This document shows, piece after piece, positions 15,241 through 26,903 of a stretch of DNA of 64,000 nt; the first letter of the stretch is position 1; the number at the start of each line of letters is the position of its first letter. Made by a program: the position numbers and the translations under genes. The notes below the pieces were generated by a model. That model ran no database searches. It was not told the DNA's origin and saw nothing but the letters and a program-made list of their open reading frames with translations. Source of the stretch: an uncultured Cryomorphaceae bacterium. Lineage in GTDB: Bacteria; Bacteroidota; Bacteroidia; Flavobacteriales; Schleiferiaceae. Location: positions 1 to 64,000 of the forward strand of contig CACMMX010000005.1 of assembly GCA_902614915.1 (NCBI GenBank). Direction: 5' to 3'.

Positions 15241-16308
15241 TTATTTCTTTATAAACTTTTCTTCAGCAAAAATGCCCGTTTCTCGATTTAGTGTTCGACA
15301 AAAGTAAATGCCTGAAGAAAGCGTAGATATATCTATATCAGTTTGGCCAAGACCCAATGTCTTTTCTATGACAGCTGTTCCTTTTACATCGTAAACAATG
15401 AAATTTGCATTTCTCCATGGTTGTTCTACGGTAATCCTTTCTTTAGCAGGACTTGGATAGATGGTGATGGAGTTGTATTCTAATTCGTCTTGATTTAAAG
15501 TGCTACTCTGATACACGCGTACATAATCCAAGATCATTGGACTTGATGTAAAGTTCACGTCAATACTGGATTGGATGGCAATATTCAATAGTAGGTATTG
15601 TGGATTATCAAACGGCCAAGTGAAGCTGGTTCTATCCACAGGTTCATAGGTGTAATGGACAATGCTATCCACACTGAACACCATTTTAGTTGGTGTCCAT
15701 TCCACGGCATAAGTATGAAAAGATGCGCTAACTCCCGGTATGGTGCGCCCGCCAACATTTATAGTATTCCCAAAACTAGATAAGGTATGCAGAGCGCTGC
15801 TCACATAATCTTGATTATTTCCCCAATGTTCCATAATGTCAACCTCTCCACAAGCCGGCCAATATTGATTGGCATACCCTTGCGTATCCCACCAAGCACC
15901 AATCTCATGAATGTTTTGACCTAACATCCAGATGGCAGGCCAAGTGCCCGCTCCCGTGGGTAACTGGGCACGTGCTTCAACTCGTCCATAAGTAAACGCA
16001 AACTTTGAATTTAAACGGGCAGAGGTATAGTCCTTGGTAACGTTTTGGTCTGTAAAAGTTTCTTTTCGAGCGGTTAGGTATAAATAACCATTTTCACAAT
16101 ACGAGTTGGTATCACGATTTGTGTAATGCTGAATTTCTCCATTCCACCAACTTTGTCCATTATTGGGCAATAGGGTTTGATGCCACCATTTGGAGCTGTC
16201 CAAACTTCCGTCTACGTTGAATTCATCCGCCCATACCAATGAATCAAAAACTTGAGAAGTCGCCAATAAACAGAAGAAACTAAAAAGTAATGCTAAAGGG
16301 GTTTTCAT
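15241..16308 (-). CDS. secreted GH16 beta-glucanase (laminarinase-type) with T9SS sorting domain
   Basis: The 355-residue enzyme has a signal peptide (TPLALLFSFFCLLATSQ), a GH16 jelly-roll domain at about 20-265 and a T9SS type A domain from about 275 (ITIYPSPAKERITVEQ) to the end. The catalytic motif reads GEVDIMEHWG, the E-x-D-x-x-E arrangement with the nucleophile and acid/base glutamates near residues 153-158. Sequence around it (QLPTGAGTWPAIWMLG) fits family 16 enzymes that cut beta-1,3 or mixed-linked glucans. Laminarin as substrate is inferred from the neighbouring GH17, GH30 and phosphorylase genes. It faces the same direction as the SGNH protein gene upstream, with a 48-base gap. Confidence 0.92.
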   Translation of the reverse strand: MKTPLALLFSFFCLLATSQVFDSLVWADEFNVDGSLDSSKWWHQTLLPNNGQSWWNGEIQHYTNRDTNSYCENGYLYLTARKETFTDQNVTKDYTSARLNSKFAFTYGRVEARAQLPTGAGTWPAIWMLGQNIHEIGAWWDTQGYANQYWPACGEVDIMEHWGNNQDYVSSALHTLSSFGNTINVGGRTIPGVSASFHTYAVEWTPTKMVFSVDSIVHYTYEPVDRTSFTWPFDNPQYLLLNIAIQSSIDVNFTSSPMILDYVRVYQSSTLNQDELEYNSITIYPSPAKERITVEQPWRNANFIVYDVKGTAVIEKTLGLGQTDIDISTLSSGIYFCRTLNRETGIFAEEKFIKK

Positions 16309-16356: not shown

Positions 16357-17973
16357 TTAATGATTATTAGGTCCTTTAATTCCTGCATTAACGTATATCT
16401 CTATGAAATTCTCTTTTGGAGTTATTGGACATGAATATCCGTCTGTATAGGCACAATAAGGATTATAGGCATAATTGAAATCTAGTACTATGGTGTTACC
16501 TTCGGGCTTGGTGATATCCATGAAACGGCCCGTGCCGTAGGTGCTCACTCCCGTAGTTTTGTCCATGAAAGGAAGGAAGAGGTGGTCCTGATAGTCTTCC
16601 ATAGCCATCAATTGCTTGCTTTGGTAAAGGAACAATTCTAAGGTTTGACCGCGCAGCTCGAAGGAGGTCTTTGCATAACGGCGGTATTCTCGACTCACTC
16701 CTGAACTGGTGGCCATATCAAACCACGGTTCATTTTCGAGCACATGAATCTGCGCCTCAACTGCTAACTCCGGATTGTAGCGAAAGAATTCATGTCCGTT
16801 GAAAGCGGCGCGCTCCTTAGGCCTTAGAGGGCTAGTGGTTGAATCTCTATAAAAATGGTCCAATGCTTTTTGGAACTTCAATACCTCAACACGTTCAGGC
16901 GTTGCTAATGGCACAAGGTCACTAACCACTTCATTAGGTACCTCAAAGCTTAAGCTGTAGTGGTAGATTTTGAGGCCTTCTTTTGTTGCGCGTACAACAC
17001 CAACGCCTCTGCATTTGCCCATATGGGGTGAATCTAGACGCTCGTTGAACCATAAGGTGTTTCCCTTTCTGTACCAATGACGATCAAATGCTTCAAAGGT
17101 CCAAGCGCTTTCTCTTCGAAAATAAGGTGCTGCCCAAACGCTAAACTCCCCGGCAGTCCAGTATTCACTGCCGTCGGTGCCTTGGAAGATACTTTCATTA
17201 TTACAAAAGGCTCCGAAATAAGCTGCCGAATCTGCTTTAGCTGCTGCTTGGTGCCAGTTGTCGATGAACTCATTGAGTAATCGATCTTCTACGTATGAAT
17301 CACGAATTTCTTCAGCCATATGAAGGCCTAAGAGATGATTACCTTTATCGTTCAAGTGTAGTTTATCGAAAAAAAACAGCGCTGAATCGACTTGTCCATT
17401 GTTGTCGGTAAGCCATGGCCAGCAGTCCATGAAGTGGTAGTTATATCCATCGGCTAATTCTTCGAGAAGACTGTTCACGGCCTTGTATTTAGCAAGGTGG
17501 TTCCAACGCGCAGGAGAAGGTTTTGGTGAAAGTAGAAACACGCGAAGCTCTGGGTGGGTTTGCTGGATCCAATTCAAAAGTTGTCGAGCATCCAAAATAA
17601 TATTGAATATTTTTCTTTGGCCGCCATCTTCCTCTAAATGAACGATATCATTATCTCCTTCATAAATAACTAGGATATCTGGTTCGGTCGCAGAAATGAG
17701 TTGCTCTTTGTAGCGGTATAAATCATCATAACAAGAGCCTCCGATGCCAGCATTGACAACCTCGTATTCCGGGAAGCTTTCAGCAATGTTATTCCACAAC
17801 CTAAACGTCGAACTTCCAGCAAATACAATTCGATTTTGGCTGTGAGGTAACTGATTCGCTGTCGAGATAATTTTTTGTACTTGTTCATCATAATTGGCTC
17901 CGCATTGGGCGCTACTAGAAAATGAAAAGAGCCCTAAAAGACCTATAATGAACAGTGAATTTCTTCTGTACAT
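16357..17973 (-). CDS. secreted SGNH hydrolase / SnoaL-like / DUF1684 three-domain protein
   Basis: The 538-residue protein has a signal peptide (FIIGLLGLFSFSSSAQ) and three separate domains. Residues about 25-230 are a GDSL/SGNH esterase fold with all blocks present: FAGSSTF (Ser), NAGIGGS (Gly), EGDNDI (Asn) and DKLHLNDKG (Asp-His). Residues about 231-355 match the SnoaL_3/NTF2-like family (DNWHQAAAKADSAAYF, GKCRGVGVV, LKIYHYSLSFEVPNE). Residues about 368-535 match DUF1684 (TYGTGRFMDI, then LDFNYAYNPYCAY and SCPITPKEN). I know these families as separate proteins, so the combination is unusual. A deacetylase or esterase role on glycans is plausible; the roles of the other two domains are unknown. 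Confidence 0.85.
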   Translation of the reverse strand: MYRRNSLFIIGLLGLFSFSSSAQCGANYDEQVQKIISTANQLPHSQNRIVFAGSSTFRLWNNIAESFPEYEVVNAGIGGSCYDDLYRYKEQLISATEPDILVIYEGDNDIVHLEEDGGQRKIFNIILDARQLLNWIQQTHPELRVFLLSPKPSPARWNHLAKYKAVNSLLEELADGYNYHFMDCWPWLTDNNGQVDSALFFFDKLHLNDKGNHLLGLHMAEEIRDSYVEDRLLNEFIDNWHQAAAKADSAAYFGAFCNNESIFQGTDGSEYWTAGEFSVWAAPYFRRESAWTFEAFDRHWYRKGNTLWFNERLDSPHMGKCRGVGVVRATKEGLKIYHYSLSFEVPNEVVSDLVPLATPERVEVLKFQKALDHFYRDSTTSPLRPKERAAFNGHEFFRYNPELAVEAQIHVLENEPWFDMATSSGVSREYRRYAKTSFELRGQTLELFLYQSKQLMAMEDYQDHLFLPFMDKTTGVSTYGTGRFMDITKPEGNTIVLDFNYAYNPYCAYTDGYSCPITPKENFIEIYVNAGIKGPNNH

Positions 17974-18295
17974 GAAATGGAATCTATTGATACAGGTGAA
18001 GATACGTTAGTCTAAAACGAAATAAAGGGTACTTCCAAGCAAAAAAAGGCAAAAACTCCTTTGTCCTGCAATTGTCCGGATAACTTCTATGGCATAAGTT
18101 TTTATACTTGAAAGGACTAAAACCGCGCATATTTCGCTGAAAATTACCTAAAAAACAAGTATTCCCGCAGGGAGTGCGTTCAGAATTAAAAGTCCATTGA
18201 AATGTTGAAATAGAATTTTAATCCAGGTAAAGGATAAAGTGTATCAATAACCAATTAAAACAGATTATGTCCTGCCATAAAGGGAAGAATGATAT
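17974..18295. other. divergent regulatory gap before the beta-glucan operon
   Basis: This 322-base gap separates the SGNH protein gene from the divergent glucan operon, so it should carry both promoters. I find no exact TAnnTTTG box near either start; TATACTTG about 190 bases upstream of the phosphorylase gene differs at one position. No ORF of more than a few codons, no tRNA and no strong hairpin is visible. Confidence 0.4.
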
Positions 18296-21200
18296 ATGAA
18301 AGACTATAAAAATATATTTCTTGGTGAACAGCTTCGCAATGGTCAAGAAGAAGAAGTAAAAGGTGAAGAGGTAATGATCAACTCCGAGTCGTTTTATAAA
18401 ATTTCCAATTACGATTTAATGCGACCTTTCTTCATGAGCATTGTAAGTAATTCCAATCATTGGATGTTCATATCAAGTACGGGTGGGCTTACAGCGGGAA
18501 GAAAAAATAGCGAACACGCTCTTTTTCCATATTATACAGATGATAAAATAACGGAATCATCAGAATATACAGGTTCCAAAACCATTTGCTTGGTAGAACG
18601 AAAGGATAAAGTGTGCCTTTGGGAGCCTTTTTCTTCAAAATACCATGGAATTTACCGCGTGAGTCGCAACCTGTATAAAAACTCTTTCGGTAATAAGATT
18701 CGATTTGAAGAGATTAATCATGATTTGGAATTGACATTCTCCTACGAGTGGAATTCTAGTGATAAATATGGATTTGTCCGAAAATCGCTGCTAACCAACA
18801 ATGGGTCAAGCTCGGTGAGGGTTCGATTCGCAGATGGCCTTCAAAATCTATTACCCTATGGTGTTGAATCGTCGTTACAAGCGGCTTCAAGCAATTTAGT
18901 TGATGCCTACAAGAAGTGTGAGTTAGAAGCTGAAGTAGGTCTTGGTCTTTTTTCGTTGAGCGCTGTCATTGTTGACAAGGCAGAGCCGAGTGAGGCCTTG
19001 AAAGTCAATGTTGCGTGGGCACTAAATAGCCCAAATTCTACCAAACTGCTGTGTTCAAAACAGCTTGAGGCTTTTAGAAACGGAAAAGTTCCAATACAAG
19101 AAGTTGATATTAAAGCCGAACGCGGAGCATTCATGGTTTGCGATGAGGTAACCCTTGAGGCCCATACAAAAGAGCAATGGAGCATTGTTACAGATGTAAA
19201 TAAAGGCCCGGTGGAGGTTGCAGATTTACTAGAAGCTTTGAAATCTCCCGAGGCGCTGAGGAAGGAAGTTTTTACTGATGTTGAGGCCGGATCAGCTAAC
19301 TTAATGGTATTGGTTGCTGCCTCAGACGGTCTTCAACTTACTAATGACCGGCTTTTGAATATTCGTCATTTTGCCAACACCATGTTTAATATTATGCGCG
19401 GAGGTATTTTCGATGACCACTATAATATTGATAAAAGTGATTTTGAAAATTATATGGCCAAGGCCAATAAAATCGTTTTCAAAAGAAACAGTCAAACGCT
19501 AAGGAAGTTAGATTCTCATTTTAATCTTCACACCCTAAAGGCTCTTGCATCGTCATCTGAAGATACCGATTTCAAGAGACTTGCATTTGAATATTTGCCA
19601 TTGAAGTTTAGTCGTAGGCACGGCGATCCTTCTAGACCTTGGAATAAGTTTTCAATCAATACTCGCGATGAGGTCACGGGTGATAAAATATTGGACTATC
19701 AAGGAAATTGGCGCGATATTTTCCAAAACTGGGAAGCTTTAGCCCATTCTTATCCTGAATTTATGGAAGGGATGATTCATAAATTTCTCAATGCCACCAC
19801 TTTTGATGGTTACAATCCTTACAGAGTGGTAAAAGACGGTTTTGATTGGGAAACCATAGAACCTGATAATCCTTGGTCCTACATAGGTTATTGGGGCGAC
19901 CATCAGATCATTTATCTGCTAAAATTCTTGGAGTTTATTGAAGATCACTATCCAGGAACATTAAAGCAATATTTCAAGCAAGAGATTTTCGTTTATGCAA
20001 ATGTTCCCTATACCATCAAGGGCTATAGAGATATACTAAAAGACCCAAAAAATACCATAGATTTTGATCATCAAGGAGAAGAAGCCATAGAGTATAGAAT
20101 GGCATCCCTAGGTGCAGATGGAGCACTCTTGCTGAATCAAAATTCGGAGATTCACAAGGTTAATTTCTTGGAGAAAATCTTAGCCACCGTTCTTGCCAAA
20201 GTAAGCAATCTGATTCCTGAAGGCGGTATTTGGATGAATACCCAGCGACCAGAGTGGAATGATGCCAACAACGCCTTGGTTGGAAACGGTGTAAGTATGG
20301 TTACGCTTTATTATCTGAGAAGATTTTTGAGCTTCTTTGAAGAAGTGCTTCATCAAGAGAAAGGCGAAGTCAAAGTAAGTACAGAGTTAGCAGTCTTTTT
20401 CCGCGGTATTGCCGGGGCACTAGAGCACAACAAGGGTTTACTAAAAACAGGTTTTTCGGATATTCAACGAAAAGACGTTTTAGATTCTTTAGGTGAGCCC
20501 GCTAGTGTGTATCGTTGGAAAATTTATAAAAATGGTTTTTCTGGAACATTTGAAACGCTGTCCATAGATGAATTGAGTCAATTCGCAGAGTTGGCAAGAT
20601 TGTATATGGAACAGAGCATCCGCTCAAATAAACGCGAAGACGGGCTTTATCACGCTTATAATTTAATCACCGTCAAGGGCGATAGTGTTCAAGTGAGTTA
20701 TCTCTCAGAAATGCTTGAAGGTCAAGTCGCCGTTTTGAGTTCAAAATATTTAAATGCTTACGAAAACACAGATGTATTGGATGCTCTAAAATCGAGTGCC
20801 TTATTCCGCGAAGATCAATACAGTTATATACTTTATCCGAATAAGGATTTATCAAGATTTACATCAAAGAATTGCATTCCAACAGTGCGTGCAGAGGCCT
20901 CCGAACTTATCGCTGCCTTGAATAAGGCAGGTGATAAAACTGTGGTGCTTAAGGACCGAAACGGCGTATATCATTTCAACGGAATGTTCAATAATGTAAA
21001 CAGTTTAAACGATGCATTAGATCAACTTCCTAGTGGATTCGACGCATTGGTTTCCAGAGACCGAGCGTTATTATCATCCATCTTTGAAGAGGTCTTCGAT
21101 CATAAGTCTTTTACTGGTCGTTCAGGTACGTTCTTTGGATATGAAGGTCTTGGTTCTATCTATTGGCATATGGTAAGCAAGTTGCTGTTGGCTGCATACG

Positions 21201-21745
21201 AAAACACGAATGAAGCGTTAAAAACAAACGATGAGGTATTGATTGGTCGTATGTATGACCATTACTTCGAGATTTTAGCCGGTATTGGTGCGCATAAAAG
21301 CCCGAAACTTTATGGTGCATTCCCAACGGACCCGTATTCGCACACACCAGGTGGAAAGGGTGCCCAGCAGCCCGGCATGACCGGTCAGGTAAAAGAAGAT
21401 TTAATTAGCAGATTTGGTGAACTAGGTGTATGTGTTAAAGAAGGTAAACTGACTTTTGCACCAAGAATTCTCCGCAATGAGGAGTTCTTGAGCAATGAAG
21501 GTGTTTTTGAATACGTTAATATTGGAAATGAGGTTGATTCTGTAAAAGTCCCGAAAGAAGGACTGGCCTTTACTTACTGTCAAGTTCCTGTCATTTATGA
21601 GCGCTCAGACAAGCCTCAAATTGTAGTACACACCAAAAGCGAAGTACATACTATTGAAGGGGATACTTTAAGCGCTGAATTGACTTCGGCCCTGTTTCAA
21701 AGAACAAACAGAATTAAGAAAATCGTAGTTTCTGTAGTAAAATAA
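18296..21745 (+). CDS. cytoplasmic beta-1,3-glucan phosphorylase, GH149-type
   Basis: The 1149-residue protein has no signal peptide, so it acts in the cytoplasm. Its N-terminal half includes the beta-sandwich segment FISSTGGLTAGR with HALFPYYTDDKI, and the middle has the alpha/alpha-barrel motifs YQGNWRDIFQNWEAL and TQRPEWNDANNALVGNG. The W-N-D of the latter (Asp656) lines up with the catalytic Asp of GH94 phosphorylases. Length and motif set fit the GH149 family, which phosphorolyses beta-1,3-oligoglucans to glucose-1-phosphate. It is the first gene of an operon with GH17, a clan-A hydrolase, GH30 and a GPH transporter, which fits. GH94 or GH161 are the alternatives; a family search would settle it. 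Confidence 0.75.
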   Translation: MKDYKNIFLGEQLRNGQEEEVKGEEVMINSESFYKISNYDLMRPFFMSIVSNSNHWMFISSTGGLTAGRKNSEHALFPYYTDDKITESSEYTGSKTICLVERKDKVCLWEPFSSKYHGIYRVSRNLYKNSFGNKIRFEEINHDLELTFSYEWNSSDKYGFVRKSLLTNNGSSSVRVRFADGLQNLLPYGVESSLQAASSNLVDAYKKCELEAEVGLGLFSLSAVIVDKAEPSEALKVNVAWALNSPNSTKLLCSKQLEAFRNGKVPIQEVDIKAERGAFMVCDEVTLEAHTKEQWSIVTDVNKGPVEVADLLEALKSPEALRKEVFTDVEAGSANLMVLVAASDGLQLTNDRLLNIRHFANTMFNIMRGGIFDDHYNIDKSDFENYMAKANKIVFKRNSQTLRKLDSHFNLHTLKALASSSEDTDFKRLAFEYLPLKFSRRHGDPSRPWNKFSINTRDEVTGDKILDYQGNWRDIFQNWEALAHSYPEFMEGMIHKFLNATTFDGYNPYRVVKDGFDWETIEPDNPWSYIGYWGDHQIIYLLKFLEFIEDHYPGTLKQYFKQEIFVYANVPYTIKGYRDILKDPKNTIDFDHQGEEAIEYRMASLGADGALLLNQNSEIHKVNFLEKILATVLAKVSNLIPEGGIWMNTQRPEWNDANNALVGNGVSMVTLYYLRRFLSFFEEVLHQEKGEVKVSTELAVFFRGIAGALEHNKGLLKTGFSDIQRKDVLDSLGEPASVYRWKIYKNGFSGTFETLSIDELSQFAELARLYMEQSIRSNKREDGLYHAYNLITVKGDSVQVSYLSEMLEGQVAVLSSKYLNAYENTDVLDALKSSALFREDQYSYILYPNKDLSRFTSKNCIPTVRAEASELIAALNKAGDKTVVLKDRNGVYHFNGMFNNVNSLNDALDQLPSGFDALVSRDRALLSSIFEEVFDHKSFTGRSGTFFGYEGLGSIYWHMVSKLLLAAYENTNEALKTNDEVLIGRMYDHYFEILAGIGAHKSPKLYGAFPTDPYSHTPGGKGAQQPGMTGQVKEDLISRFGELGVCVKEGKLTFAPRILRNEEFLSNEGVFEYVNIGNEVDSVKVPKEGLAFTYCQVPVIYERSDKPQIVVHTKSEVHTIEGDTLSAELTSALFQRTNRIKKIVVSVVK

Positions 21746-21754
21746 TTAAAGAAA

Positions 21755-23023
21755 ATGAACGTATTCTGTGCACGAATTCTTGGTATTTACATCCTTACTT
21801 TGACGTTGGGTTTGAATTCATGTACAACCGCCGAAAAGCCTATGATAGCTGATAAAAGTGCAAAGGAAATATTAGGTAACCCTGAATATCGTGCCATTTC
21901 ATTTGGCGGATACAGAGGGAAGAAAAGAGCGGAGCAGCCAACAATATTGCAACTCAAGGAAGATTTAAGGATCATGTCTGCAATGGGCATCAAAATTCTT
22001 CGAACATATAATTTGCAGCTTCCGCATGCCTTGAATGTGCTTAAAGCCATTCGTGAATTGAAGCAAGAAGATGCTTCATTTGAGATGTACGTGATGCTCG
22101 GAGCTTGGATGGATTGTTACGGTGCATGGACTTCAGAGCAACCTGATCACAACAAGGAGAGTGAGGAAAACAACATAAGTGAGATAAAGAAGGCGGTACG
22201 GTATGCTAATGAATATCCGGACATTGTCAAAATAATAGCCGTGGGTAACGAGGCAATGGTGCATTGGGCTTCAAGCTATTTTGTTCATCCTTCAGTCATA
22301 TTGAAGTACGTAAATTATCTGCAAGAGCTCAAACGTATCGGTAAATTATCTTCTGAGGTGTGGATTACTTCTTCGGATAATTTCGCCTCATGGGGGGGCG
22401 GCGATGAGTCTTATCATATCAAAGAATTGGAGGAATTGGTACGAGCTGTGGATTACGTAAGTACCCATACCTATCCGTTTCACGACACTCATTACAACCG
22501 TGATTTTTGGGAGAGTCCTGTGGAAGAATCGGATGGATATTCCGTTCACGATAGGGTACTTATGGCCATGAAGCGTTCGGCTATTTATGCGCAAGGTCAA
22601 TATGAAAGTGTCAAAAATTATGTCCATGCCATTGCGCCCGGCAAACCTATTCATATTGGAGAAACCGGTTGGTCAAGCATTAGTATTGGCCTTTATGGCA
22701 ATAACGGCTCTTTTGCTGCCGACGAATACAAGCAAGCCTTATACTATCAGGCTATGCGTGAGTGGACGGATGCCAAGGGGATTAGTTGTTTTTATTTTGA
22801 AGCCTTCGATGAACAATGGAAAGATTCCAATCATCCCGAAGGTTCAGAGAATCATTTTGGATTAATTACGTTAGACGGTCAGGCTAAATATGCGCTTTGG
22901 GATTTGGTGGATTCGGGCGTATTTGAAGGATTGACTCGTGGTGGTGTGCAAATTACTAAGTCGTTTCACGGCGATTCAGTATTACTATTACAGACGGTGA
23001 GTGCGCCTAAAAGGAGGTATTGA
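21755..23023 (+). CDS. GH17 family beta-1,3-glucanase lipoprotein
   Basis: The 422-residue enzyme has a lipoprotein-like signal (IYILTLTLGLNSC, lipobox Cys23). It shows the TIM-barrel pattern of GH17: KILRTYNLQ at an early strand, the acid/base in VGNEAMV (Glu166) and the nucleophile in IGETGWSS (Glu303). GH17 enzymes cut beta-1,3-glucans such as laminarin, as endo-glucanases or transglycosylases. The mature protein would sit in the periplasm or on the outer membrane. It follows the phosphorylase gene after 9 bases. Its last codons (AAA AGG AGG TAT) form a strong Shine-Dalgarno for the next gene, so the two are coupled. Confidence 0.88.
   Translation: MNVFCARILGIYILTLTLGLNSCTTAEKPMIADKSAKEILGNPEYRAISFGGYRGKKRAEQPTILQLKEDLRIMSAMGIKILRTYNLQLPHALNVLKAIRELKQEDASFEMYVMLGAWMDCYGAWTSEQPDHNKESEENNISEIKKAVRYANEYPDIVKIIAVGNEAMVHWASSYFVHPSVILKYVNYLQELKRIGKLSSEVWITSSDNFASWGGGDESYHIKELEELVRAVDYVSTHTYPFHDTHYNRDFWESPVEESDGYSVHDRVLMAMKRSAIYAQGQYESVKNYVHAIAPGKPIHIGETGWSSISIGLYGNNGSFAADEYKQALYYQAMREWTDAKGISCFYFEAFDEQWKDSNHPEGSENHFGLITLDGQAKYALWDLVDSGVFEGLTRGGVQITKSFHGDSVLLLQTVSAPKRRY
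23011..23018 (+). promoter_or_regulatory. strong Shine-Dalgarno site inside the GH17 3' end
   Basis: AAGGAGGT lies 4 bases before the ATG at 23023 and 7 before the ATG at 23026. Near-perfect Shine-Dalgarno sites are rare in this window, so it is notable; it also argues against the upstream TTG at 23020 as the start of the next gene. Confidence 0.6.
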
Positions 23024-23994
23024 TGATGAAAAAAAGTATGATTCTTTTTGGAGTAATGATTTTGATGTCTTGTCAAAGCACAGGCGTGCAACCTCTTATT
23101 GAGCCCAAACACGATGAATACTTTAAAGCCATATGCTATCATCCAGTGAGTATTAGCAATTCACAGCGCAGCTGGGAATTTATTGATGAAGACCTGGATT
23201 TGATGCAAGAGGCGGGTATCTCTGTAATTCGTGTTTATATGCCAATCCAAGATAAAGCTATTCTGAATAAAATTGCAGAACGGGGAATGAGGCTAATTAC
23301 CGGTTTCGGCTACAATCAAGATTCTATTTATGATATAGTTTCTGGAACTTATTTGAATTATGTAAAAGAGTACAAAGATCATCCCGCCATGTTTCTATGG
23401 GAGTTGGGTAATGAGTATAATTATCATCCAGAATGGTTCGGGGGTGATTTAGTAAATTGGTACAGGACCTTGGAATCTGCGGTTGATGCAATACATGCCG
23501 TTGATACCATTCACCGCGTAAGTAGTGCACACGGTGAAATTCCAGATTCACTAGCTCTTTATCATGGCCGAAGGTTGGATTTATGGGGATTTAACGTATA
23601 TCGATGGGATGCGCCCGCCTCTTTTATTGAAGATTGGAAAAAAATTAGTAATAAGCCATTTTACTTCGCAGAATTAGGATCCGACAGTTATATGACAACA
23701 GCCAACGATAGTTTGGAAACTGGGGTAAATGAACTTGCTCAGGCCATTGCCATAGGTCACATAATTGATGATCTACTTCCTTTAAAGAATGAATTCGATG
23801 GCATCACACTGTTTTCATTTACGGACGGCTGGTGGAAAGCAGGTAATCCAGAAATACAGGATGTAGGGGGTTGGGCGCCAAATAGTAGCGGGGTACCTTA
23901 TGATGGTTCTCCAAATGAAGAATACTGGGGTATCGTAAATATTGATAGAACTAAAAAGATAGCTTTTGACGCAGTTAAAGCTCGATTTAAATAA
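23023..23994 (+). CDS. clan GH-A glycoside hydrolase lipoprotein, family unassigned
   Basis: The predicted 323-residue product has a lipoprotein signal (SMILFGVMILMSC). The start is ATG 23023, which overlaps the GH17 stop (TGATG); ATG 23026 is equally possible. The mature part looks like a compact TIM barrel: VIRVYMP at an early strand, WELGNEYNY with a probable acid/base Glu (near residue 131), and FYFAELGSDS with a probable nucleophile Glu (near 217). It lacks the accessory domains of GH2 and does not match GH17 or GH30 well. GH5, GH72-like transglycosylases and the catalytic module of GH2 are candidates. Its place in the operon points to beta-glucan chains as substrate. Confidence 0.75.
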   Translation: MMKKSMILFGVMILMSCQSTGVQPLIEPKHDEYFKAICYHPVSISNSQRSWEFIDEDLDLMQEAGISVIRVYMPIQDKAILNKIAERGMRLITGFGYNQDSIYDIVSGTYLNYVKEYKDHPAMFLWELGNEYNYHPEWFGGDLVNWYRTLESAVDAIHAVDTIHRVSSAHGEIPDSLALYHGRRLDLWGFNVYRWDAPASFIEDWKKISNKPFYFAELGSDSYMTTANDSLETGVNELAQAIAIGHIIDDLLPLKNEFDGITLFSFTDGWWKAGNPEIQDVGGWAPNSSGVPYDGSPNEEYWGIVNIDRTKKIAFDAVKARFK

Positions 23995-24000
23995 TTTCTT

Positions 24001-25494
24001 ATGCATTGTAGAACGATAATTACAACAATGTCGGCTATTCTATTGGTGTCCTGTGCCGAAAAAAATGACATGAAGTTTAAAGTCTTTGAAACATCCGCAT
24101 CAGGTAAAAATATAGAAGAGGTTAATAATTTTAATCAAACCGAAAACCATTCAAAAATTTCGGTTAATCTCGCTGTAGAGCGTCAAGCCATTATAGGATT
24201 TGGCGGGGCATTTACCGAATCATCAGCATATAATTTGAATAAGCTTAGTGCTGAGAATCGTGATGCTGTGCTTAAGGCTTATTTCTCTCAGGAAGGCTCA
24301 AATTATTCTTTAACAAGGACACACATGAATTCTTGTGATTTTTCAGTGAGTAATTATTCATACACTCCGGTACCAGGTGATATCCATTTAGAGCACTTCT
24401 CAGTGGACGAAGACAGAGATGACCTTATACCTATGATTAAAGATGCTCAAGCAATTAGTCAAGGAGGGTTTAAAATATTGGCCTCACCATGGTCTGCTGC
24501 GCCTTGGATGAAGGACAATAACGATTGGCGTGCCGGTAAATTGAAAGAAGAATATTATGATACGTGGGCTTTATTCTTTAGTAAATTTGCTTCTGCGTAC
24601 GCAGAGGAAGGAATAGATATATGGGGATTTACCGTTGAGAATGAACCGCATGGAAACGGTGGTAACTGGGAAAGTATGCATTTCACTCCGCAGGAGATGA
24701 CACGATTTGTTAACGAACATTTGGGTCCGAGATTAGAAGCTGATGGTAAGGGAGAACTCATCATTTTAGGATATGACCAAAATAGACAGATTCTTCAAGA
24801 ATGGGCGGATGTTATGTATAGGGATGAGACCTCAAAAAAATACTACGACGGTATGGCCCTTCATTGGTATGAAAGCACTTACGACTACTTCCCAGATGAA
24901 TTGGACTATGCCTATCATGCAGCTCCTGAAATGCTTTTATTACAAACCGAGGCTTGTGTGGATAATCAAGTGCCTGAGTGGCAAAATGATCGATGGTATT
25001 GGCAGAAAGAAGCTACGGATTGGGGCTATTATTGGCGGGAAGAAGAAAATAGATACTTGCACCCAAAATATGCTCCGGTCAATCGTTATGCTAGAGATAT
25101 CATTGGTTGTTTAAACCATTGGGTTCAAGGCTGGATAGATTGGAATATGGTCCTTGACCGTCAAGGAGGCCCAAATTGGGCTAAAAATTGGTGTGTTGCA
25201 CCAGTAATTGTGGATGTCGATAATGATGAAGTCTACTATACACCTATGTTCTATGTGCTTCAGCACTTCAGTAAATTTATTCGTCCCGAAGCGAAAGTTG
25301 TAGAGGTGTCCAAAACAGATGATAATTTGATGGTTACGGCAGCCAAAAACACAGACGGTTCTGTTGCCGTTGTTGTTTTCAACGAAGGAGAAGAGGCTAG
25401 AAGTTTTGATTTGGAACTTGATGGTCAAACCGCTTCAATTGCTGTTGAGCCACAGGCTTTACAGACTATATTCATTCAAAGGAATTCTGAATAA
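24001..25494 (+). CDS. GH30 beta-glucosidase / beta-1,6-glucanase lipoprotein
   Basis: The 497-residue enzyme starts with a lipoprotein signal (TTMSAILLVSC). It has the GH30 start GFGGAFTESSAYNL, the RTHMNSCDFS segment, the acid/base in TVENEPHGN (Glu215) and the nucleophile in LLQTEACVD (Glu317). A small beta-sandwich closes the protein, as is usual in GH30. The motifs fit subfamily 1 or 3, which include exo- and endo-acting beta-1,6-glucanases; removal of the beta-1,6-linked glucose branches of laminarin is the likely job. It lies 6 bases after the clan-A hydrolase gene and its stop shares a base with the transporter start. Confidence 0.9.
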   Translation: MHCRTIITTMSAILLVSCAEKNDMKFKVFETSASGKNIEEVNNFNQTENHSKISVNLAVERQAIIGFGGAFTESSAYNLNKLSAENRDAVLKAYFSQEGSNYSLTRTHMNSCDFSVSNYSYTPVPGDIHLEHFSVDEDRDDLIPMIKDAQAISQGGFKILASPWSAAPWMKDNNDWRAGKLKEEYYDTWALFFSKFASAYAEEGIDIWGFTVENEPHGNGGNWESMHFTPQEMTRFVNEHLGPRLEADGKGELIILGYDQNRQILQEWADVMYRDETSKKYYDGMALHWYESTYDYFPDELDYAYHAAPEMLLLQTEACVDNQVPEWQNDRWYWQKEATDWGYYWREEENRYLHPKYAPVNRYARDIIGCLNHWVQGWIDWNMVLDRQGGPNWAKNWCVAPVIVDVDNDEVYYTPMFYVLQHFSKFIRPEAKVVEVSKTDDNLMVTAAKNTDGSVAVVVFNEGEEARSFDLELDGQTASIAVEPQALQTIFIQRNSE

Positions 25495-26903
25495 TGGGTA
25501 CTGTTTCTAAAGTCCCTATGGGACAAAAAATTGCTTTTGGTATTGGGATGCTTGCCAACCAAATGTTCCCCGCGGCAATGAGCATATTTATGGTTGTTCT
25601 TGTCCAGGATTTAGGTTTTCCTGGCTGGATGTGGGGTGTAATATTCTTTGCGCCACGTGCCTTTGATTCCATTCTTGATCCAATTATGGGTTTTATTTCT
25701 GATAATACACGCTCCAAGTGGGGTCGGCGCCGGCAATATGTATTTTTGGGAGCTATACTCATGGGGTTCGCTTTTGCTATGCTTTGGCAATTGTATCGAG
25801 AAGACAGTATTCTTCACAATTTCACCCATGTGATGGTGTGGTCTTTTATTTTTTACCTGGGGCTTACAATTTTTGGTGTGCCCTATGTGAGCATGGGTTA
25901 TGAAATGAGCGATGACTACCATGAGCGCACCACTGTCATGGCTATTTCTCAATGGATTGGTCAATGGGCATGGGTGATTGCTCCTTGGTTTTGGGTAATC
26001 ATGTATGATCCTGAATGGTTTCCAACTGCCGATGAGGCTACTCGAACACTATCCATTTGGGTTGCATTGGTATTTACCTTGTGTGCTATTGCACCTGCTC
26101 TATTCATTAAAGGAGATAGCACAGTTAGAAGAATAGATTATGAACCTCTGAATTTAAGTGGCATTTTCGGTAGCCTAAAAAAGATTGCTAAAAATTTTGT
26201 AGAAGCCTTTGAATCTTCACCATTTAGAAAGTTGTGCATTGCTACGTTCCTCATTTTTAATGGCTTTAATACGGTTGCTAGTTTTACTTATTTTGTAATT
26301 CGATCTCATCTATTTGACGGAGCGGCTCCCGGCGTTTGGCCCACTCTATTTGGCTCCGTGGGTGCCTTAGTTACGACATTTATAGTGATTCCAATAGTAG
26401 CTAAAATGGCAAAATCTTTAGGTAAAAAGAGGGCATTTATTGTTTCTCAGTCCATTTCTATAGTAGGCTATACGTTACTGTGGTTTTTAATGATACCTGG
26501 TAAGCCACATATGTTTTTATTTGCACTTCCGTTCCACTCTTTTGGAATAGGAGGTTTATTTACAATTATGATGTCAATGACTTCTGATGTTTTAGACATT
26601 GATGAGCTGAATACAGGTAAGCGACGTGAGGGTGTATTTGGTGCAATTTACTGGTGGATGGTAAAGCTCGGATTTGCTTTTGCTGGAGCCCTTAGTGGAT
26701 TAATTCTGACTTTAGTTAATTACCAAAGCGGTGCTGCATTACAACCTGAAGGCTCGGTAGAAAATCTTCGCTTGGTTTTCTCTGGATTACCCATTGTTTG
26801 CACGCTAATTGCTATCGCAGTCATGTGGAATTATAAAGTAGATGAAAACTATGCAAAGGAGGTTCGAGCGGAGCTGGATAAAAGAAAACAGACACTAGGC
26901 TAG
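25494..26903 (+). CDS. GPH-family (MFS) sugar:cation symporter
   Basis: The 469-residue protein has about twelve hydrophobic segments and the GPH/MelB loop motif: DPIMGFISDNTRSKWGRRR near residue 62. A second characteristic segment is FTIMMSMTSDVLDIDELNTGKRREG in the later half. Members couple uptake of glycosides or oligosaccharides to sodium or proton flow across the inner membrane. It is the last gene of the glucan operon, overlapping GH30 by one base (TAATG). It likely brings laminari-oligosaccharides or glucose to the cytoplasmic phosphorylase. No terminator hairpin with a T tract is evident in the following 155 bases. Confidence 0.92.
   Translation: MGTVSKVPMGQKIAFGIGMLANQMFPAAMSIFMVVLVQDLGFPGWMWGVIFFAPRAFDSILDPIMGFISDNTRSKWGRRRQYVFLGAILMGFAFAMLWQLYREDSILHNFTHVMVWSFIFYLGLTIFGVPYVSMGYEMSDDYHERTTVMAISQWIGQWAWVIAPWFWVIMYDPEWFPTADEATRTLSIWVALVFTLCAIAPALFIKGDSTVRRIDYEPLNLSGIFGSLKKIAKNFVEAFESSPFRKLCIATFLIFNGFNTVASFTYFVIRSHLFDGAAPGVWPTLFGSVGALVTTFIVIPIVAKMAKSLGKKRAFIVSQSISIVGYTLLWFLMIPGKPHMFLFALPFHSFGIGGLFTIMMSMTSDVLDIDELNTGKRREGVFGAIYWWMVKLGFAFAGALSGLILTLVNYQSGAALQPEGSVENLRLVFSGLPIVCTLIAIAVMWNYKVDENYAKEVRAELDKRKQTLG

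Follow-up and report, generated by a model that had tools for sequence, protein, structure and literature searches.

Results

The window (the whole 64,000-nucleotide stretch of DNA analyzed here) carries on its minus strand a gene for a protein that begins with a predicted signal peptide and continues with three domains identified by Pfam, in the order SGNH/GDSL hydrolase, SnoaL_3 (NTF2-like) and DUF1684. The features of the gene are as follows:

16357..17973, minus strand: coding sequence of the fused protein, 538 aa, ATG start, stop codon included, without an internal stop
17908..17973, minus strand: signal peptide as predicted by reading the sequence, covering about residues 1-22 (SSSA/QCG)
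17308..17907, minus strand: SGNH/GDSL hydrolase domain, residues about 23-222, with Ser55, Gly78/79, Asn108, Asp203 and His206
16924..17277, minus strand: SnoaL_3 (NTF2-like) domain, residues about 233-350, from PF13474 and the model fold
16360..16863, minus strand: DUF1684 domain, residues about 371-538, from PF07920 and solved relatives
16429..16455, minus strand: conserved Cx7C pair of DUF1684, C507 and C515

Domain calls were judged against the curated Pfam cut-offs, and all three exceed theirs: Lipase_GDSL_2 (PF13472) matches residues 58-213 (E 1.2e-17, 65.4 bits against a cut-off of 32.9), SnoaL_3 (PF13474) residues 234-345 (E 1.9e-17, 64.2 bits, cut-off 22) and DUF1684 (PF07920) residues 390-533 (E 7.7e-41, 140.1 bits, cut-off 25), the last over profile positions 2-139 of 139; an NCBIfam profile search of the fused protein returned no match. 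The original prediction, that three families are joined behind one signal peptide in a gene that is not broken, is borne out by this single frame, by the SGNH blocks and the SnoaL_3 match, and by the DUF1684 signature with C507 and C515. All four blocks of the SGNH/GDSL family, with their Ser, Gly, Asn and Asp-x-x-His, are present: block I is G53-S54-S55 (nucleophile Ser55), block II is GIGG at 76-79, block III is G106-D-N108-D and block V is D203-K-L-H206, and Ser55, Gly79, Asn108, Asp203 and His206 are invariant across the aligned orthologs and two stand-alone relatives. The domain was aligned with a PAF-acetylhydrolase of solved structure, and the solved proteins closest to it, a GDSL lipolytic protein and PAF-acetylhydrolases, are not polysaccharide esterases. 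The DUF1684 match takes in the C-terminal signature with Cx7C, which is a motif of this family (PMC9426492), and there are two solved relatives, both haloarchaeal (2lnu and 2lok/4dlh/4fj4).

For the SnoaL part, sequence searches of the PDB with the single sequence or a 5-row profile found no relative. Modeled alone with AlphaFold2 (pLDDT 57.9, a modest confidence), the domain matched the SnoaL-like 3lza in Foldseek (E 2.8e-4) and aligned with the isomerase NsrQ (Z 9.4, rmsd 3.0, 114 residues aligned); the profile match and the cone-shaped alpha+beta fold of this modest-confidence model identify the middle domain as an NTF2/SnoaL fold. Structure prediction was thus informative for the SnoaL domain alone but not for the joined protein, whose full-length AlphaFold2 model, built from 8 close orthologs, has a mean pLDDT of 40.4, and we therefore make no statement on domain packing.

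The protein had initially been described as secreted. It does carry a predicted signal peptide, a stretch that is poorly conserved relative to the domains (mean pairwise identity 0.29), but a T9SS C-terminal Por_Secre_tail, sought with Pfam and NCBIfam, gave no match in the fused protein, unlike the adjacent GH16, which has one. Inspection for a lipobox (A, G or S before Cys) found Gln as the residue preceding Cys24, which does not mark a lipoprotein. Because the signal peptide is accompanied by neither a lipobox nor a T9SS tail, the description is better narrowed to an exported protein whose location is probably the periplasm.

A genome search found a single copy of the fused gene in the genome from which the window derives, its DUF1684 being the only one there. 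Within one genus (Schleiferiaceae-type), 25 species genomes were searched and 22 gave a match to the fused protein; the three-domain protein is complete or nearly so in 15 of these 25 and is cut by a contig end in 5 more, and two (G010 and G020) encode SnoaL-DUF1684 only, with a signal peptide of its own. Over 14 orthologs, SGNH has a median dN/dS of 0.11, and SnoaL and DUF1684 one of 0.06 each, with ortholog identities of 0.77, 0.88 and 0.87, in that order, and the fusion is under purifying selection. That the fused frame might be an artefact of assembly or annotation, or else a decaying gene, is exceedingly improbable when the same frame recurs, at low dN/dS, in the genomes of different species, 15 of which hold it complete or nearly so; we found no support for this explanation and reject it as refuted by the ortholog set.

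Outside the genus, the matches listed from 395 sampled genomes of the order each cover one domain only, in a ranking where any multi-domain match would stand above single-domain ones. The sole other full-length match among 395 sampled genomes of the class (78% identity) is in G901, a MAG binned to another family, where the gene lies on a contig (L120, identical with L024) of 6891 bases (6.9 kb) whose DNA shows 92.5% identity to the genus member G018 over 2.6 kb, comprising the gene, the gap and the start of GH149. Given the short contig and this DNA identity, we rejected the idea that the fusion had passed horizontally into another family, and the G901 copy is probably a misbinned contig. A literature search found no description of an SGNH-SnoaL fusion. 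Judged by these sequences, the architecture is a new one built of known domains and, within the samples searched, confined to a single genus; as the original prediction had supposed, the middle and last domains match Pfam and the order of the three domains is uncommon.

Of 395 Bacteroidota genomes sampled, 196 contain DUF1684 itself. We rejected longer DUF1684 frames from other parts of the phylum as candidates, as they represent a long form of DUF1684, in-frame upstream codons or a fusion to peptide deformylase. In the Bacteroidota genome G414, one exported 418-aa frame (L056:3473-4729, minus strand) joins DUF1684 to a polypeptide deformylase domain, and an exported deformylase is odd in its own right.

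Stand-alone SGNH proteins of Flavobacteriales (such as L050 and L054) are like the fused SGNH domain in their four blocks and catalytic residues and have a K-x-S-x-x-R segment in common with it, but they are unfused proteins of about 215 aa that are 36% and 26% identical to it, and the L050 gene, unlike the fused gene, has no adjoining beta-glucan operon. Stand-alone exported SnoaL_3 proteins of the same order (such as L046, L048 and L053) belong to the same Pfam family and are 43-50% identical over the domain, but have this domain only, and their neighbors by eye include, for example, Fe-S assembly-like genes. The solved haloarchaeal DUF1684 proteins are alike over the whole domain, including Cx7C; they differ in being short and single-domain, and are titled 'uncharacterized protein'.

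The genes on either side of the fused gene are these:

15241..16308, minus strand: GH16 with a T9SS sorting tail, on the same strand as the fused gene and 48 bp downstream of it
18296..21745, plus strand: GH149 beta-1,3-glucan phosphorylase, the divergent neighbor (NF058639, 1722 bits, cut-off 1150)
21755..23023, plus strand: GH17 family protein (PF00332)
23020..23994, plus strand: 324-aa exported protein without a Pfam or NCBIfam match
24001..25494, plus strand: GH30 family protein (PF02055/PF17189)
25494..26903, plus strand: MFS_2 sugar transporter (PF13347)

Both the adjoining GH16 and the divergent beta-glucan operon are as originally claimed. The GH149-GH17-(324 aa)-GH30-MFS operon spans 18296-26903 on the plus strand, back to back with the fused gene, and the window brings GH149, GH17, GH30, GH16 and MFS together in the manner of a laminarin locus. 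The link of the fused gene to this operon is in fact stronger than first claimed, resting as it does on the near-invariant element in the gap described below and on synteny: the fused gene diverges from GH149-GH17-(324 aa)-GH30-MFS in all 7 of the three-domain neighborhoods read, as far as the contigs reach, and is followed on the same strand by GH16, directly or one gene away, in 5 of them. In G003 and G005 the usual place of GH16 downstream of the fused gene is held by a 280-aa exported protein (L042:1522-2364 and L041:12344-13186) that has a GNSF motif and looks SGNH-like by eye. The 324-aa protein of the operon is kept across the genus; its fold, guessed by eye only, suggests that it may be a TIM-barrel glycoside hydrolase from a group not yet described.

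GH149 loci of other genera in the family contain GH16, and mostly GH30 and GH17 as well, but no SGNH/SnoaL/DUF1684 gene, and the fused protein is therefore not required for GH149 function. Furthermore, in the six neighborhoods read around stand-alone SGNH, SnoaL and DUF1684 genes of other genera, none lies in a beta-glucan locus. The suggestion that the locus might supply a genomic context for DUF1684 cannot be carried over to the family as a whole, given these observations and the finding that SnoaL-DUF1684 of G010 and G020 has neither an SGNH domain nor the GH149 operon beside it.

The gap between the divergent genes contains two conserved features:

18062..18079, plus strand: putative regulatory element TGTCCTGCAATTGTCCGG, a direct repeat TGTCC-N6-TGTCC, between the divergent genes
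18103..18110, plus strand: TATACTTG, located 23 bp downstream of the element, -7 box-like and facing GH149, in conserved TTnTTAnnnTTG columns of the gap alignment

In the gap alignment of 15 species, TGTCCTGYAATTGTCCGG at 18062-18079 stands as a nearly invariant block amid otherwise diverged DNA, and its TGTCC direct repeat has a period of 11 bp. The downstream TATACTTG resembles the Bacteroidota -7 box (consensus TAnnTTTG); a scan for sigma-70 type promoters, a model unsuited to Bacteroidota, remained at chance level. At up to 3 mismatches there is no second match to the element in the window (shuffles average 0.06), at 0 or 1 mismatch it is present at this locus in 19 genus genomes, and a control with the reversed pattern across the genus gave 0 matches. 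Most genus genomes contain one further match, usually TGTCCGGYATTTGTCCGG, and at all 7 loci read this site closely precedes a gene for a SusC-type receptor; the genes that follow it encode SusC, SusD, a lipoprotein, GH16, a CBM48-like T9SS protein, a Reg_prop/Y_Y_Y sensor and a GH5-type enzyme. Two susC partner loci preceded by TGTCCGGYATTTGTCCGG are:

L153:8940-19989: partner locus of G016
L155:7348-20000: partner locus of G005, with the GH5-type gene next

The window's own genome, an assembly that is 86% complete, gave no susC-side element at up to 2 mismatches, and another clade has a diverged variant of it. The four species G017, G003, G021 and G019 (L149:1501-1518, L151:1501-1518, L152:1501-1518 and L125:1501-1518) have a further variant, TGTCCTGTnnTTGTCCGG, within the opening codons of the gene for the Reg_prop/Y_Y_Y sensor; it could be a site of autoregulation, or a chance match derived from one ancestor.

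Direct-repeat DNA motifs upstream of polysaccharide loci are a feature of the Bacteroides HTCS/SusR regulons (PMC3878776), although HTCS repeats average about 21 bp apart (PMC3878776) and the TGTCC repeats here 11 bp. HTCS regulators are of the AraC-type hybrid two-component kind; the sensor near susCD matches Reg_prop and Y_Y_Y without an AraC match, and its C-terminus is only weakly LuxR/sigma-4-like. With a shared element taken as the proxy for co-regulation, the fused gene probably belongs to one laminarin-type beta-glucan regulon over two loci, in which the TGTCC repeat would be the putative operator, because the element is common to the gap and the susCD/GH16 locus and is missing from the genomes with the two-domain form.

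In the two genomes with that form, G010 and G020, the gene order is Era, SnoaL-DUF1684, GH16, without the operon in between; a genome search found the TGTCC element absent from both, and G010 retains the operon on another contig. The protein tree and the Era/Der tree alike place these genomes as a deep lineage, the position of the root being weakly supported. As the SGNH domain, the adjacent operon and the element are all missing there, the SGNH domain was presumably gained or lost jointly with its neighbors; domain and operon probably came to, or left, the locus as one block, in either direction. Since the pair exists fused without SGNH, SnoaL and DUF1684 may have been joined first.

Discussion

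We propose, with belief and doubt about equally balanced, that the fused protein works in the periplasm as an O-acyl carbohydrate esterase attached to a SnoaL-DUF1684 unit that already existed, and is co-induced with beta-glucan use. The gene would be switched on jointly with the uptake and breakdown of laminarin (beta-1,3-glucan, a sugar stored by algae), and the SGNH domain would act as an ester hydrolase through Ser55-Asp203-His206, freeing imported glucan oligosaccharides, or glycans taken up along with them, of O-acyl groups (most simply acetyl), such that exo-acting enzymes and the GH149 phosphorylase might finish the chain. SnoaL-DUF1684 would be the more ancient part, with one-to-one counterparts in other members of the order; its NTF2 fold may supply a small-ligand pocket, and DUF1684 is probably a disulfide-bonded domain (Cx7C), the two presumably aiding binding or stability and not adding another activity on carbohydrates. 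The main weakness of the deacylation reading is that laminarin, to our knowledge, is not usually described as O-acylated.

A carbohydrate-esterase role of the SGNH domain is plausible. Fll1 and Fll4 of Flavimarina are multimodular SGNH-type carbohydrate esterases of marine Flavobacteriia with xylan targets (PMC12247016), and resemble the fused protein in placing an SGNH esterase within a multi-domain protein at a polysaccharide locus, but their partners are other CE, GH or CBM modules in place of SnoaL and DUF1684 (PMC12247016). Among solved structures, the SGNH domain comes closest to a GDSL lipolytic protein and to PAF-acetylhydrolases, and those stand-alone relatives of SGNH, SnoaL and DUF1684 whose surroundings were read lie outside beta-glucan loci, as might be expected if the fused gene were tied to the operon by position and regulation and its SGNH domain were an envelope maintenance esterase during growth on glucan. 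This is conceivable, though we are inclined to doubt it, as operon synteny is genus-wide, the shared element recurs before susCD, and the Bacteroidota carbohydrate esterases CE3 and CE6 likewise have the SGNH fold (PMC12247016). Lysophospholipid, peptidoglycan or lipid A acyl groups would be the candidate targets of such an enzyme, and are to be regarded with similar doubt.

The slower evolution of SnoaL and DUF1684 relative to SGNH (identity 0.88 and 0.87 against 0.77; dN/dS 0.06 against 0.11) and the occurrence of the two-domain form alone in G010 and G020 point toward yet another arrangement, wherein SnoaL-DUF1684 is the core, engaged in periplasmic redox or small-molecule handling via Cx7C, with SGNH captured by chance at insertion of the operon and the fusion persisting mainly through its core. 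The Haloferax DUF1684 protein HVO_1043 is hypochlorite-induced and has been put in a thiol-relay group for its Cx7C (PMC9426492), which is in keeping with that arrangement. However, the SGNH domain is clearly under purifying selection with its catalytic set intact, and a cysteine pair in an exported protein may be a mere structural disulfide; as such, we consider the core arrangement unlikely.

The proposal of a co-induced carbohydrate esterase can be carried a step further, to a novel type of periplasmic enzyme for processing glucan, whose SGNH domain strips an unrecognized O-acyl decoration from marine beta-1,3-glucans while DUF1684 and SnoaL_3 serve as a substrate-binding platform. We hold this to be quite improbable; if true, it would furnish the first defined role for DUF1684 as well as an acylated laminarin-type substrate.

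The novelty of the protein is modest, being a genus-restricted fusion of three exported proteins that are separate in other bacteria. Also new is a conserved putative control element common to the gap beside the fused gene and the susC-susD-GH16-sensor locus of relatives, and TGTCC-N6-TGTCC is a candidate operator for a beta-glucan regulon of two loci, in an aquatic genus of Flavobacteriales that is represented here by MAGs only. DUF1684 is widespread and its structures have been solved, yet it is without a known function, and its natural fusion to a predicted esterase within a recognizable regulon offers a concrete assay and an inducing condition.
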